Source of the DNA: Pseudomonadota bacterium
GTDB lineage: Bacteria > Desulfobacterota > Binatia > Bin18
NCBI GenBank assembly: GCA_005804965.1
Contig: SYOC01000241.1
Location: 1 to 56,899 of the forward strand
Length of the DNA stretch: 56,899 bases
Direction: 5' to 3'
Each line of letters begins with the position of its first letter. The stretch's first letter is position 1. The translations under genes and the position numbers were made by a program. The notes below the pieces were generated by a model. The model saw only the letters and a list, made by a program, of their open reading frames with translations. It did no database searches and was not told the origin of the DNA. Of the stretch, positions 27,106 to 37,557 are shown piece after piece.

Positions 27106-28194
27106 ATGTCGGACACTGCTGCATTATCTTCCAAACGCATCCAGGTGAGCGAAGACGATCCTATCGAACTGCTCTATGCACGTGGGGTCACCGATGGCTT
27201 GCCTGTCGTGCCGCCGACCGAAGCCCGGGTCCAACGCATGCTGGCCGCGACTGAGCGCGAGCCGAGCGAACTCATCGGTCTCATTGGTCCAAACTACGGA
27301 CGCGCGACGATTGAGAAGATCGCCATCAACGCCGTGATGGCGGGCTGTCATCCCTCGTATTTCCCGACAGTGCTCGCTGGCATAGAAGCCATGTGTGAAG
27401 AGCAGTTTTGCATTCATGGCATTAACGTGACAACGTTCTCCGCCACACCGATGGCGATCATCAACGGCCCGATTCGCAAGCAGATTGGCGTAAACGGCGG
27501 CCACAACGCGCTCGGGCACGGCTTCCGCGCCAACGCGACGATTGGCCGTACTTTCCGCCTGTGCATCATCAATATCGGCGGTGCCAAGCCGCACGAAATC
27601 ACCAAGGCGACCATGGGGCACCCGGCGCAATACACCTTCTGCGTCGGTGAGAACGAAGAAGAAAGCCCGTGGGAACCGCTGCATGTCGAGCGCGGCTATC
27701 GCCCCGAGCAAAGCACGATTACCCTGTTCGGCGGGCATTCGCCCATGCAGCTGAATGACCATGCCAGCCGCGACGCCGAACAGCTCGCCCTTTCTTTGGG
27801 CTGGACGATGGCCGGGCTATGGAATCACAAGAACTTTCCCTTATTCTCCGACACCATGCTGGTGGTCTGCCCTGAACATGCCAAGACGTTCGCCCAAGAC
27901 GGCTGGTCAAAAAACGACTTACGCCAATTCCTCTTCGAGAAGATCCGCCGTCCTTTGCGCGAACTACGACCTGGGGTCAACGGTGGCGAAGGTGCCGGCG
28001 TGAGCATGCTGCGTATGCCGGAGAAAGATCGCGAGCCACCGACGGACGACACGCTCTTCCCGAAATTTGCCAAGGCGGAACATCTCTCCATCATCGTCGC
28101 CGGCGGCACGGCGGGGCGCTTCTCGGCAGCGGTACAGGGCTGGGCGGGTGGTCAGTTTGGCAGTAAAATCACGACCAAAGAAATTCAAGAATGA
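27106..28194 (+). CDS. conserved protein of unknown function, partner of UGSC selenoprotein (copy 1)
   Basis: LLYARGVTDGLPVVPPTEARVQRMLAATER...GHNALGHGFRANATIGRTFRLCIINIGGAKPHEITKATMGHPAQYTFCVGENEEESPWEPLHVERGY; paralog of 33544..34629. Confidence 0.85.
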   Translation: MSDTAALSSKRIQVSEDDPIELLYARGVTDGLPVVPPTEARVQRMLAATEREPSELIGLIGPNYGRATIEKIAINAVMAGCHPSYFPTVLAGIEAMCEEQFCIHGINVTTFSATPMAIINGPIRKQIGVNGGHNALGHGFRANATIGRTFRLCIINIGGAKPHEITKATMGHPAQYTFCVGENEEESPWEPLHVERGYRPEQSTITLFGGHSPMQLNDHASRDAEQLALSLGWTMAGLWNHKNFPLFSDTMLVVCPEHAKTFAQDGWSKNDLRQFLFEKIRRPLRELRPGVNGGEGAGVSMLRMPEKDREPPTDDTLFPKFAKAEHLSIIVAGGTAGRFSAAVQGWAGGQFGSKITTKEIQE

Positions 28195-28224: not shown

Positions 28225-28770
28225 ATGAGTGACATGTTGCTCGATCCCACCGATAAAGTGGAACGATCACAGAAAGCATTCGCCCCGCGCCTGGACACCC
28301 TGGCCGGGACGACCATCGGCCTGCTGGATATCAGCAAGGCGAAAGGTGCCTTCTTCCTCGACCGTGTGGAAGAGGTGCTGCGCGAGAAATATGGTGTGAA
28401 AGAAGTGCTGCGGCGGATGAAGCCGACGGTGGCACGGACTGCACCAGCCGCCATCAAAGCCGAGCTGACAGAGAAGTGTGACGCCGTCATCGAAGCCCTC
28501 AGCGATTGAGGGGCCTGCATTTCGTGCAGTTCGCACGATGTAACCTACTTTGAAGAGCAAGGCATTCCTACGGCAAACGTGACCACGACCGAATTTATTG
28601 GCGCTGCCCACGCGCAATGTACCGCACTGGGTATGCCAGCATACGAGCCCATCCTCGTTCAGCATCCGATTCAACCCAAAACCAAAGACGACGTCCGCGC
28701 GTTAGCCGACCAAGTCCTCGATCAGATCGTAGGCAAGCTGCTCAAGCAGAAGGTGCAGCAAGCGGCGTAG
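28225..28770 (+). CDS. UGSC-family selenoprotein, copy 1 (TGA codon 95 read as Sec)
   Basis: MSDMLLDPTDKVERSQKAFAPRLDTLAGTTIGLLDISKAKGAFFLDRVEEVLREKYGVKEVLRRMKPTVARTAPAAIKAELTEKCDAVIEALSD[TGA 28507]GACISCSSHDVTYFEEQGIPTANVTTTEFIGAAHAQCTALGMPAYEPILVQHPIQPKTKDDVRALADQVLDQIVGKLLKQKVQQAA*. Confidence 0.88.
28519..28541 (+). promoter_or_regulatory. putative SECIS hairpin, UGSC copy 1
   Basis: UCGUGC-AGUUC-GCACGA (28522..28538), 6-bp perfect stem, loop with G at second position, loop 22-26 nt from UGA; extends to A-U and U.G after one mismatch. Sequence identical in copy 2. Confidence 0.75.
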
Positions 28771-33358: not shown

Positions 33359-33543
33359 TGCATTCCTCCATAGTCGGGGATGCGCATCTTGTCGCGCATC
33401 CGCGCGGCAATCATACCGACCCCGGTCATGCCGTCAACCAAGAAGACGCAAAGGAAGCATAGAGACGGCAAGGCGTGCAAATGCAACTTGCAATCCTTTC
33501 CCGAACGTCCTATGAGAAGAAAACCGCTGAGGAGGAAAACACT

Positions 33544-34629
33544 GTGGCCACTGCTAACGCTGTTGCATCGACACTGCTGCCAGAGGATCTGATCGAACAA
33601 CTGTACGAACAAGGAGTCACCGATGGATTGCCCGTGGTGCCTCCGACCCGCGACCGCGTCGAGCGCATGCTGGCCGGTGCCCCAGACCGTACGCGAGATG
33701 AGCTGCTGGGCATGATTGGCCCGTGCTATGGCGAGGCCACGGTCGAGAAGGTCGCGATTAACGCGGTCATGGCTGGGTGTCGGCCTGAATACTTGCCGGT
33801 TGTCTTGGCCGGAGTCGAAGGACTCTGCGACGAACGGCTGTGTGCGCACGGACTCAATGTCACGCTGTTCTCTGCCGCGCCGTGGGCCATTATCAACGGC
33901 CCCGTGCGGCTACAAATTGGATTGAATAGTGGACATAACGCCCTGGGCCACGGGTTTCGTGCCAATGCAACCATCGGTCGCGCCTTGCGTCTGGCGATTA
34001 TGAATATTGGTGGTGCACGACCCCATGAACTGACAAAGGCGACGATGGGTCAGCCTGGTCAATACAGTGCAGTCATTGCCGAAAACGAAGAAGAGTCGCC
34101 GTGGGAGCCGTTCCATGTCGAGCGCGGGTTCAGAGAAGACGACTCGGCAATTACGTTGTTCGCGGGTGGATCACCGCAGCAGATCAGCGATTTTCAGAGC
34201 CGCAGCGCTGAACAACTTGCATCGTCGATCGGTTTCACCATGGGCGGGGGACTGTGGAACTTTAAGAACTTTCCCCTGTTCGGTGACACCGTGCTGGTGT
34301 TGAGTCCAGAGCATGCCCAGACCATTGCCGCCGACGGCTGGTCGCGCAAAGATGTGCGCCAATTTCTCTACGATACCGTCAAAAAGTCGCTCGACGAACT
34401 CAAGCCCGGCAAAGATAGCGGCGAAGGCTTCGGTAGTGCGTTGTTACGTGGGGCAGAAACCAGCGGCTTCCTTGTCGATGGCTACGTGCGCAAGTTCCGC
34501 TCGCCGGAGTCAATCCTCGTCGTCGTCGCCGGCGGTACAGCGGGGCGCTTCTCAGTGGCGATTCCTGGCTGGGTGGCGGATGACTTAGGCAGTACCCCAG
34601 TCACAAAACAGATTCACGTCAGCGAATAG
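33544..34629 (+). CDS. conserved protein of unknown function, partner of UGSC selenoprotein (copy 2)
   Basis: LYEQGVTDGLPVVPPTRDRVERMLAGAPDRTRDELLGMIGPCYGEATVEKVAINAVMAGC...NALGHGFRANATIGRALRLAIMNIGGARPHELTKATMGQPGQY; clear paralog of 27106..28194. GTG 33544 follows GAGGAGGAAAACACT. Confidence 0.85.
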   Translation: MATANAVASTLLPEDLIEQLYEQGVTDGLPVVPPTRDRVERMLAGAPDRTRDELLGMIGPCYGEATVEKVAINAVMAGCRPEYLPVVLAGVEGLCDERLCAHGLNVTLFSAAPWAIINGPVRLQIGLNSGHNALGHGFRANATIGRALRLAIMNIGGARPHELTKATMGQPGQYSAVIAENEEESPWEPFHVERGFREDDSAITLFAGGSPQQISDFQSRSAEQLASSIGFTMGGGLWNFKNFPLFGDTVLVLSPEHAQTIAADGWSRKDVRQFLYDTVKKSLDELKPGKDSGEGFGSALLRGAETSGFLVDGYVRKFRSPESILVVVAGGTAGRFSVAIPGWVADDLGSTPVTKQIHVSE

Positions 34630-34664: not shown

Positions 34665-35213
34665 ATGGCAGAAGAATTGATGAACCCCATCGGCTACGGT
34701 GGCAAAGCACAGAAGCCGTTGGCCCAACGCCTGACCAGCGTACGCGGGAAAACTATTGCCTTGCTGGATATCGGGTTTCCCAACAGCGGGGTGTTTCTCG
34801 ACCGTATGGAAAGCTTGCTAAAAGATCGCTACGGCGTAGCCGAAGTGGTGCGCCATGCCAAGCCGTCGCCCACGCGGATGGCGAAGCCAGAGGTACGCAA
34901 AGACATTCTCTCGCGCTGTCACGGCGTGATCGAAGCGGTGAGTTCGTGAGGATCCTGCATTTCGTGCAGTTCGCACGATGTCGCCTACTTTGAAGAGAAC
35001 GGGATTCCCACCGCCAACATTTCTACGACGGAATTCGTTGCCGCCGCCCGCGTGCAATGCAAAAACCTCGGCATTCCCCAGTACGAGGTCGTGACGGTAC
35101 CACATCCGATTGTTCCCCTGACCAAAGATGAAGTGTGGTCGCGAGCAGATGCGATCATCGACTCGGTCATCGGTAAACTGGTGGCAGAGGAGATGCGGGC
35201 TACGGCGCTGTAG
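34665..35213 (+). CDS. UGSC-family selenoprotein, copy 2 (TGA codon 95 read as Sec)
   Basis: MAEELMNPIGYGGKAQKPLAQRLTSVRGKTIALLDIGFPNSGVFLDRMESLLKDRYGVAEVVRHAKPSPTRMAKPEVRKDILSRCHGVIEAVSS[TGA 34947]GSCISCSSHDVAYFEENGIPTANISTTEFVAAARVQCKNLGIPQYEVVTVPHPIVPLTKDEVWSRADAIIDSVIGKLVAEEMRATAL*; exact U-G-S-C motif. Confidence 0.9.
34959..34981 (+). promoter_or_regulatory. putative SECIS hairpin, UGSC copy 2
   Basis: UCGUGC-AGUUC-GCACGA (34962..34978), identical sequence and spacing to copy 1. Confidence 0.75.
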
Positions 35214-35445: not shown

Positions 35446-35934
35446 TTACGCTGCTTCGGCTTGCCATTCCTCGTGTTCCACGGTCAGACCGAGATGGAAA
35501 ACTCGCGGCAGTTCCTGCGTCGAAATCGCTCGCAACGTTGCGAGCGAATAGTCTCTCACCGGCCCCTTGGTGGCGATCATGAGGCGTAAGAGACGATCGG
35601 CTTGCGCTCCCATGTGGGCCTGGGCTTTTTCCCAGCGCATGACGGTTTCTCGCGTCGTTCCCATATGGGCAGCAAAATCTGCCTCTGACCAGTCGAGATA
35701 TTTGCGTAAATAGCGAATCTCTTCGGCATTCAGTCGAGATGGCTTTGCGATAAGCGCCTGAGCGATAGTTTGATGGAGCGCCTCAATACGGGGAATGGTA
35801 ATCTCTTCCTCTCCACATTGAGAACAGCGACTGACCTCAATGTTCCGTAAGGTCACATGGGACAAACCACAAGCGGTATAGGGAACATCCTTCTTCTGGG
35901 TTTTCATCTTTGCGCCACAGGTCAGGCAATTCAT
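35446..35934 (-). CDS. MqsA-like antitoxin (zinc ribbon plus XRE HTH)
   Basis: MNCLTCGAKMKTQKKDVPYTACGLSHVTLRNIEVSRCSQCGEEEITIP...EEIRYLRKYLDWSEADFAAHMGTTRETVMRWEKAQ. Confidence 0.85.
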   Translation of the reverse strand: MNCLTCGAKMKTQKKDVPYTACGLSHVTLRNIEVSRCSQCGEEEITIPRIEALHQTIAQALIAKPSRLNAEEIRYLRKYLDWSEADFAAHMGTTRETVMRWEKAQAHMGAQADRLLRLMIATKGPVRDYSLATLRAISTQELPRVFHLGLTVEHEEWQAEAA

Positions 35935-36215
35935 CAGCGTATCCTCCATGCGGTGACCACAACAAGGTGTGTGTCGGAACGGAAGGCGATTACGACGTAG
36001 ATCGAGGCAGCTCGGACTCGATACCGCCAAGTACCCGCTCGTAATTCAGGCGGTTCCACTACGCCACCGCGTAAGACATTCGTGCAATCAATAGTTGTCA
36101 AATGATCCTTCGCCATTTCCTGCAAGGCGTGAGTAGAGAACCCCACCTTTCCAACCGGCAAGATCCTGTGAATGAGTTGTCGGGCATAGTGCAGAGCAAA
36201 AGGTTCGCCTGTCAT
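35934..36215 (-). CDS. DUF4258 / MqsR-like putative toxin
   Basis: MTGEPFALHYARQLIHRILPVGKVGFSTHALQEMAKDHLTTIDCTNVLRGGVVEPPELRAGTWRYRVRAASIYVVIAFRSDTHLVVVTAWRIR; ATGA overlap with the antitoxin. Confidence 0.8.
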   Translation of the reverse strand: MTGEPFALHYARQLIHRILPVGKVGFSTHALQEMAKDHLTTIDCTNVLRGGVVEPPELRAGTWRYRVRAASIYVVIAFRSDTHLVVVTAWRIR

Positions 36216-36276: not shown

Positions 36277-37557
36277 TCACGTTCCCGCCACTGCCAACTG
36301 CGAAAACACATACGGACCTTCGGGGATGATAGCGACGTGCGCACCGTGCGGCAGCTCGCGACACAACGCCGCCACCGCTTCGTCCGGGCGGTCGAATACT
36401 GGCCCCCACAGATATTGCCGATCTGCCAACGGAATGCCTGGAGTACAAAAGGCAAGGCTCGCCTTGCTGGCGACTAGGGCCAGCTTTTCCAGTTGCCATT
36501 GGTCGATGACGACTGGCTCTTTTTCCGTGGTATCGAGACAGGCTTGAGCATCGGGAAACCGCCGCACGAAGTTCGTGAACTCCGGGCTGCCGAGTCCTTC
36601 CTGACAGGCGGCGGCCAGCAGAATCCGCCCACCCGGCTTCACGATATGCGACGCTGCCGTCACGCCTTTCACGCTTTGGTAATAGGTGAGATCAAGCGGA
36701 TATCCGGCACTGGTGGTCACTACGGCATCGACTGGTGCTGCCAGCAAGGCCAGAGTCGCTTGGCGGACAAACTCGACTCCAGCAGCATGCGCGGCAGTCG
36801 GCTCGCCAGCAAAGACGCGGGCAATCTGCCGTGAGCGGGTCAGCGCAACATCGACGATAAAATCGTGACGAGCCATCGCCGCAATTTCCAATAGCTCGCG
36901 ATGCAGCGGGTTGTCGGGAAACGAGCCTTCCACGACTTGCGGGTCGCGCATGAAAAAGGGGCTGTGGAGTCGTTTGATAGTGGCTTCTCCTGCCAACCCC
37001 GGCGCGACCAATTTGCGCCCGCCGGAGAAGCCGAGCATCAGATGTGGCTCGATGAAGCCGAGCGAGAGATGGAGATCGCTGGCGATGAAGCGTCGGTCAA
37101 TCAACACATGGGTGCCGGAGCGTGTCGTGCCCAGATCAAGATGAGAAGAAACATCACGGGCGTCATGAGAGACGACGGCGTACTGCCCGAGGATGTCCGG
37201 GCCAACGATTTCGAGTAACTCTTGCGGCGTCGCCGCCCGGTGCAGCCCGGTGGCAATCAGCAGAACGACCCCAGCACGCGGTACTCCAGCCTGTTCCAAG
37301 GTGCGCAGCACATGCGGGAGCACGATGCGGTTTGGTGCTGGGCGGGTAATATCGCAAATCGAAATCGCAGCAGTCTTTTTTCCGCGCGCCAGCTCCAGCA
37401 ACGACGGCGTGCCGATGGGATGAGCGAGCGCCTCGGCCAGTGCGGCATCCGCCGAGGCTGCGGCTTCTGCCGACTTGGCATGCAGGACACTGGCGTGTAC
37501 GTGCGCAGGAATGTCGATTTCGGCACCATCGCGGCCAAACGCGAGGGTCACTTTCAT
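36277..37557 (-). CDS. LarA (lactate racemase) family / DUF2088 protein
   Basis: KKTAAISICDITRPAPNRIVLPHVLRTLEQAGV...IATGLHRAATPQELLEIVG...VSHDARD...GFIEPHLMLGFSGGRKLVAPGLAG. Confidence 0.88.
   Translation of the reverse strand: MKVTLAFGRDGAEIDIPAHVHASVLHAKSAEAAASADAALAEALAHPIGTPSLLELARGKKTAAISICDITRPAPNRIVLPHVLRTLEQAGVPRAGVVLLIATGLHRAATPQELLEIVGPDILGQYAVVSHDARDVSSHLDLGTTRSGTHVLIDRRFIASDLHLSLGFIEPHLMLGFSGGRKLVAPGLAGEATIKRLHSPFFMRDPQVVEGSFPDNPLHRELLEIAAMARHDFIVDVALTRSRQIARVFAGEPTAAHAAGVEFVRQATLALLAAPVDAVVTTSAGYPLDLTYYQSVKGVTAASHIVKPGGRILLAAACQEGLGSPEFTNFVRRFPDAQACLDTTEKEPVVIDQWQLEKLALVASKASLAFCTPGIPLADRQYLWGPVFDRPDEAVAALCRELPHGAHVAIIPEGPYVFSQLAVAGT

Follow-up and report, generated by a model that had tools for sequence, protein, structure and literature searches.

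An obligate partner gene and a remote profile-level relation to GrdB for UGSC selenoproteins of a Binatia genome

Here we describe a two-gene locus in a stretch of 56,899 nucleotides from a Binatia genome (contig SYOC01000241.1 of assembly GCA_005804965.1; the whole stretch is hereafter called the window), where a selenoprotein gene of the UGSC family at positions 34665-35213 follows a gene whose product matched no Pfam or NCBIfam family. Comparative sequence data show the upstream gene to be an obligate evolutionary partner of UGSC, and from profiles and a structure model we infer that UGSC adopts a flavodoxin-like fold and is a homologue of the C-terminal selenocysteine (Sec) domain of GrdB. 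As far as our literature search reached, both the obligate partner and the GrdB relation are new, and these are the two results worth keeping from the analysis. The selenoprotein and its RNA element, a Sec insertion sequence (SECIS), both belong to a known family; the two window copies add clean SECIS evidence without establishing a new principle. UGSC was reported in PMC2398784 from ocean (Global Ocean Sampling, GOS) metagenomes, where 255 members had Sec and 21 had Cys, and according to that study it is one of the most frequent selenoprotein families of nonmarine aquatic metagenomes; a 2026 review (PMC13188914) lists it among families with largely uncharacterised functions. The partner provides the first testable idea of the UGSC protein's role and, together with natural fusions and the GrdB link, turns an orphan family into a pair that can be expressed and assayed. 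A preliminary description of this DNA overlooked both the partner gene and the earlier description of the family.

UGSC genes and their partner

The window carries two such loci, referred to here as copy 1 and copy 2, with the following genes and codons:

27106..28194, forward strand: partner protein gene of copy 1, 61% identical to 33475-34629
28225..28770, forward strand: UGSC selenoprotein gene copy 1, 181 aa, U95, motif UGAC
28507..28509, forward strand: in-frame TGA (Sec) of copy 1, from the frame translation
33544..34629, forward strand: partner protein gene of copy 2, 361 aa from a GTG at 33544 (likely start) preceded by gaggagg; the longest open reading frame runs from 33475
34665..35213, forward strand: UGSC selenoprotein gene copy 2, 182 aa, U95, Shine-Dalgarno sequence aaggagg upstream, profile matches
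34947..34949, forward strand: in-frame TGA of copy 2, read as selenocysteine; homologues align Sec or Cys there

The two window proteins score 128.5 and 148.2 bits against the NCBIfam model NF041046 ("UGSC family (seleno)protein"; cut-off 125) and 143.7 and 158.3 bits against Pfam PF24696 (UGSC; cut-off 25, E 8e-42 and 3e-46). When TGA is translated as a residue, the copy 2 frame contains a single U, residue 95, within UGSCISCSSHDV; the exact U-G-S-C motif of the preliminary description is thus present, a single TGA being followed by G-S-C, and it conforms to the general U/C-G-x-C pattern. Copy 1, whose protein is 48% identical, has its U at the same residue but reads UGAC instead of UGSC. Apart from this difference, the copies are ordinary family members in profile score, in the Sec of a UGxC motif and in their SECIS, and a ribosome-binding-like sequence precedes the ATG of each. 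The source genome contains four UGSC genes with one TGA in each, and each of the 16 genomes that were searched from its family, itself among them, has 2-9 copies.

Partner homologues adjoin all four UGSC genes of the source genome and lie beside nearly all of 109 UGSC loci, either upstream or downstream. Across 395 genomes of the phylum, UGSC was found in 38, the partner in 38 and both in 37 of the 39 that have either gene (Fisher p 1e-49, a value that ignores relatedness), and the two discordant genomes, one UGSC-only and one partner-only, involve weak or partial matches. The partner is also adjacent in 8/8 plasmid-borne loci, four of them haloarchaeal, and in one genome the two genes are 95 kb apart. 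At least a dozen natural fusions join both proteins in one open frame, UGSC first and then the partner. PMC2398784 mentions UGSC fused to a domain named "Unknown_1", and that domain may be this partner. The predicted model of a fused UGSC-partner protein has confidence values of 93.8 (predicted local distance difference test, pLDDT) and 0.92 (predicted template modelling score, pTM), which is consistent with a defined arrangement of the two parts; Foldseek found nothing below E<0.001 for this model.

Several variants of the arrangement were also observed. In two loci (L097, L099) a single partner gene is followed by two UGSC domains in tandem, and two others (L221, L224) have one UGSC flanked by two partner genes. 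Four loci of multi-copy genomes (L131 to L134) encode fused UGSC-partner paralogues without Sec and without the motif (e.g., SGQG, TGSL), which suggests an altered function. One further genome of the same class contains up to 12 UGSC matches, several of them partner-fused.

Relation to GrdB and proposed function

In hhalign comparisons, a profile of 47 UGSC proteins aligned Sec on Sec with the C-terminus of GrdB, with a probability of 94-95% and P values of 1e-7 and 3e-8. The score was 57.6, whereas none of 40 column shuffles exceeded 24.4, and a P of 8.6e-6 against the combined GrdB set persists when the motif is masked. Unrelated clusters used as controls stayed close to background, except for one with a high score, most likely because its frames contain the UGSC N-terminus. 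The resemblance to GrdB (PF07355) and the D-proline reductase subunit PrdB comprises the Sec in UGxCxxC, a following E..GIP.. and then a conserved PHP segment, and GrdB likewise works with a partner protein. The systems differ in that the N-terminal region of GrdB is absent from UGSC and that GrdE, the pyruvoyl companion of GrdB, is unrelated to the UGSC partner.

In the AlphaFold2 model of UGSC (pLDDT 94.2), which has a parallel (beta-alpha)5 fold, U95 lies between a strand (87-93) and a helix (96-111); Foldseek ranked lumazine synthase and flavodoxin-type domains highest, at a TM of about 0.5. Sequence searches of the PDB with the UGSC and partner profiles returned only weak Rossmann and HisF matches, covering part of the profile. 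The predicted flavodoxin-like fold is at odds with the "Trx-like fold" label of the literature, Trx being thioredoxin, and the partner, the fusions and the GrdB link together suggest that this label be corrected. Under the assumption made in the literature, UGSC would be a thioredoxin-fold thiol oxidoreductase, and the partner an unrelated client or regulator. A UxxC motif is indeed typical of thiol redox sites, but the confident model has another topology, no thioredoxin fold occurs among the 50 PDB matches listed by Foldseek, the profile matches GrdB, and the second Cys of the motif is gone in at least one member (UGTSTSW). We regard this alternative as improbable.

We favour instead a two-gene operon that would encode a two-component selenoenzyme. 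Under the direction of the SECIS just downstream, SelB and tRNA-Sec(UCA) very probably insert Sec at UGA95 of UGSC, and the Sec would be placed at the N-terminus of the helix that follows the central strand of the flavodoxin-like domain, with UGSC and the partner forming one enzyme. Its selenolate may attack the leaving-group-bearing carbon of a carboxylate substrate bound with the partner's help, as in glycine and D-proline reductase, after which the neighbouring Cys, together with a thiol reductant (thioredoxin, for example), could resolve an Se-C or Se-S intermediate; by analogy, the pair would cleave a substituent from a carboxylate. GrdB and PrdB are parts of enzymes that cleave amino acids reductively, with rupture of an Se-C bond (PMC10298544), and GrdB-like proteins have been implicated in fluoroacetate reduction (PMC10838667). 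Taken as a whole, from operon and Sec decoding to carboxylate chemistry, this explanation appears probable. Its separate parts differ in strength: that the pair is a two-component enzyme is highly likely given the co-occurrence, fusions and models, and GrdB-like chemistry, proposed by analogy, is a tentative suggestion with slightly less than an even chance of being right. More speculative still would be a new class of two-component selenoenzymes, often in aerobes and with a range that includes Binatia, Actinomycetota and haloarchaea, in which selenolate/thiolate chemistry of the GrdB type would act on alpha-substituted carboxylates without a pyruvoyl subunit or GrdA.

Several observations weigh against this explanation. 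Homology to GrdB is remote and seen at profile level only, and chemistry need not be conserved; none of the 47 UGSC proteins matched PF07355 (GRDB) even at E<=1, and the PDB search found no GrdB structure. Many UGSC homologues occur in lineages known as aerobes, unlike glycine reductase. No conserved third gene accompanies the UGSC-partner pair. The partner profile gave background scores against the GrdE profile, as it did against those of GrdB and UGSC; given this lack of homology to GrdE, the pyruvoyl subunit, a Schiff base of the GrdB type is unsupported. GrdE (PF09338) also has no match in the source genome, and the pair may therefore share GrdB's way of working and yet not be a glycine reductase. 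Genomic context, drawn from a handful of chosen loci, offers thin support for carboxylate chemistry: the pair has trxB as a neighbour in Roseovarius, genes for a malonyl-CoA synthase and decarboxylase in Neorhizobium, and genes for carboxylate transporters, CoA-transferases and CoA lyases in haloarchaea; catabolic genes occur near the window's own copies.

Separately, four short PF07355 matches were found in the source genome, each at a different place; one or more of them contain a TGA in frame, within a UPVC motif, and they represent a further selenoprotein group.

Selenocysteine decoding and the SECIS hairpin

The source genome encodes the full bacterial set for selenoprotein synthesis (tRNA-Sec, SelA, SelB and SelD). 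Its tRNA-Sec, with anticodon TCA, scores 67.9 bits (gathering threshold 47) and adjoins selA, whereas selB and a Sec-type selD with its own in-frame TGA share another contig. Downstream of the TGA of each window copy lies the following hairpin:

28522..28538, forward strand: SECIS hairpin of copy 1, with the same sequence as in copy 2
34962..34978, forward strand: SECIS hairpin of copy 2, stem 34962-34967 (UCGUGC) with 34973-34978 (GCACGA), loop 34968-34972 (AGUUC)

The preliminary description had noted that 28 nucleotides after the TGA are identical in both copies and had proposed an RNA-level constraint such as SECIS. The identity is exact: the window contains the 28-mer CCTGCATTTCGTGCAGTTCGCACGATGT at two places only, 28514-28541 and 34954-34981, and dinucleotide shuffles gave 0.00 such repeats. 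The block folds into a 6-bp stem whose AGUUC loop begins 18 nt past the UGA, in agreement with the bacterial SECIS feature described in PMC1088965. Two identical copies are by themselves a thin basis, and codon sharing between them over U+1 to U+11 (8/10 shared residues vs 41/74 elsewhere) is only suggestive. An Rfam scan of the window at the gathering threshold gave no match, so that the SECIS needed direct testing; weighing against the element, the hairpins of the window copies were only modestly unusual by shuffling (z -1.0 to -1.9), and comparative tests were used for this reason.

In a larger alignment of 12 related Binatia-type genes, the same codon was used over U+1 to U+11 in 529 of 626 same-residue pairs (85%), compared with 2976 of 6444 (46%) elsewhere, and the proposed synonymous constraint was borne out. 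Residues 94-104 formed the best of 169 eleven-codon windows for codon sharing, with 100% codon identity at S100-H104 and variable flanking codons. Among 88 distinct Sec sequences, the stem positions pair in 84% of cells, against 8-51% for slid partners, and both sides have changed together at five stem pairs; the observed pairing exceeded 500/500 shuffles, a control that ignores relatedness. In a comparison with resamples in which codons were exchanged for synonymous ones taken from that gene, the mean minimum free energy of the core was -10.7 kcal/mol vs -4.7 in the resamples for 89 Sec genes, 71% of which stood at or below the 5% rank; the two window copies had ranks of 0.00 and 0.055. By contrast, none of 12 Cys homologues, comprising four from the first set and eight from plasmid records, fell in the lowest 5% (ranks 0.07 to 1.00).

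An explanation without an RNA element would require gene conversion between the window copies, or peptide conservation combined with biased codons. The CISCSSHDV peptide is identical in both copies, as either would have it, but other genomes use these codons too, the stem is kept by compensatory changes where codons change, and Cys homologues lack the excess hairpin stability; distant members with a different peptide (WLVVDQ) also appear to carry a shifted hairpin, GCUGGUC-GUU-GACCAGC, with a GUU loop. This explanation is thus very unlikely. Least credible of all is a TGA acting as a true stop, whether in a pseudogene or after a 94-aa protein: standard translation does end there, but TGA or TAG stands at this site in 107/111 parsed homologues, H147-P148 beyond it is invariant across 47 diverse sequences, and the Sec machinery is complete. 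The reading of copy 2 as a UGSC selenoprotein with a SECIS, on which the profile matches, machinery, codon constraint, compensatory changes and Sec-Cys contrast converge, is accordingly upheld, and this part of the explanation is close to certain on sequence evidence.

Other loci and neighbouring genes

Ten Geodermatophilaceae UGSC genes share the family and the hairpin of the window copies but differ in their Sec codon, TAG, a recoding already reported (PMC5330540). A Binatia-type UGSC locus (L028) was also found on CAMBFS010000014.1, titled as a Klebsiella pneumoniae metagenome-assembled genome, where the Sec-downstream window is identical to that of locus L027; the record is probably a mislabelled or contaminated bin. 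Just downstream of the copy 2 UGSC gene in the window are an MqsA-type antitoxin-like gene (35446-36087, minus strand) and a LarA (lactate racemase)-like gene (36280-37557, minus strand). Near another copy of the UGSC operon (C342), a XamI-type restriction-modification pair is located at L137:7405-10013 (minus strand).
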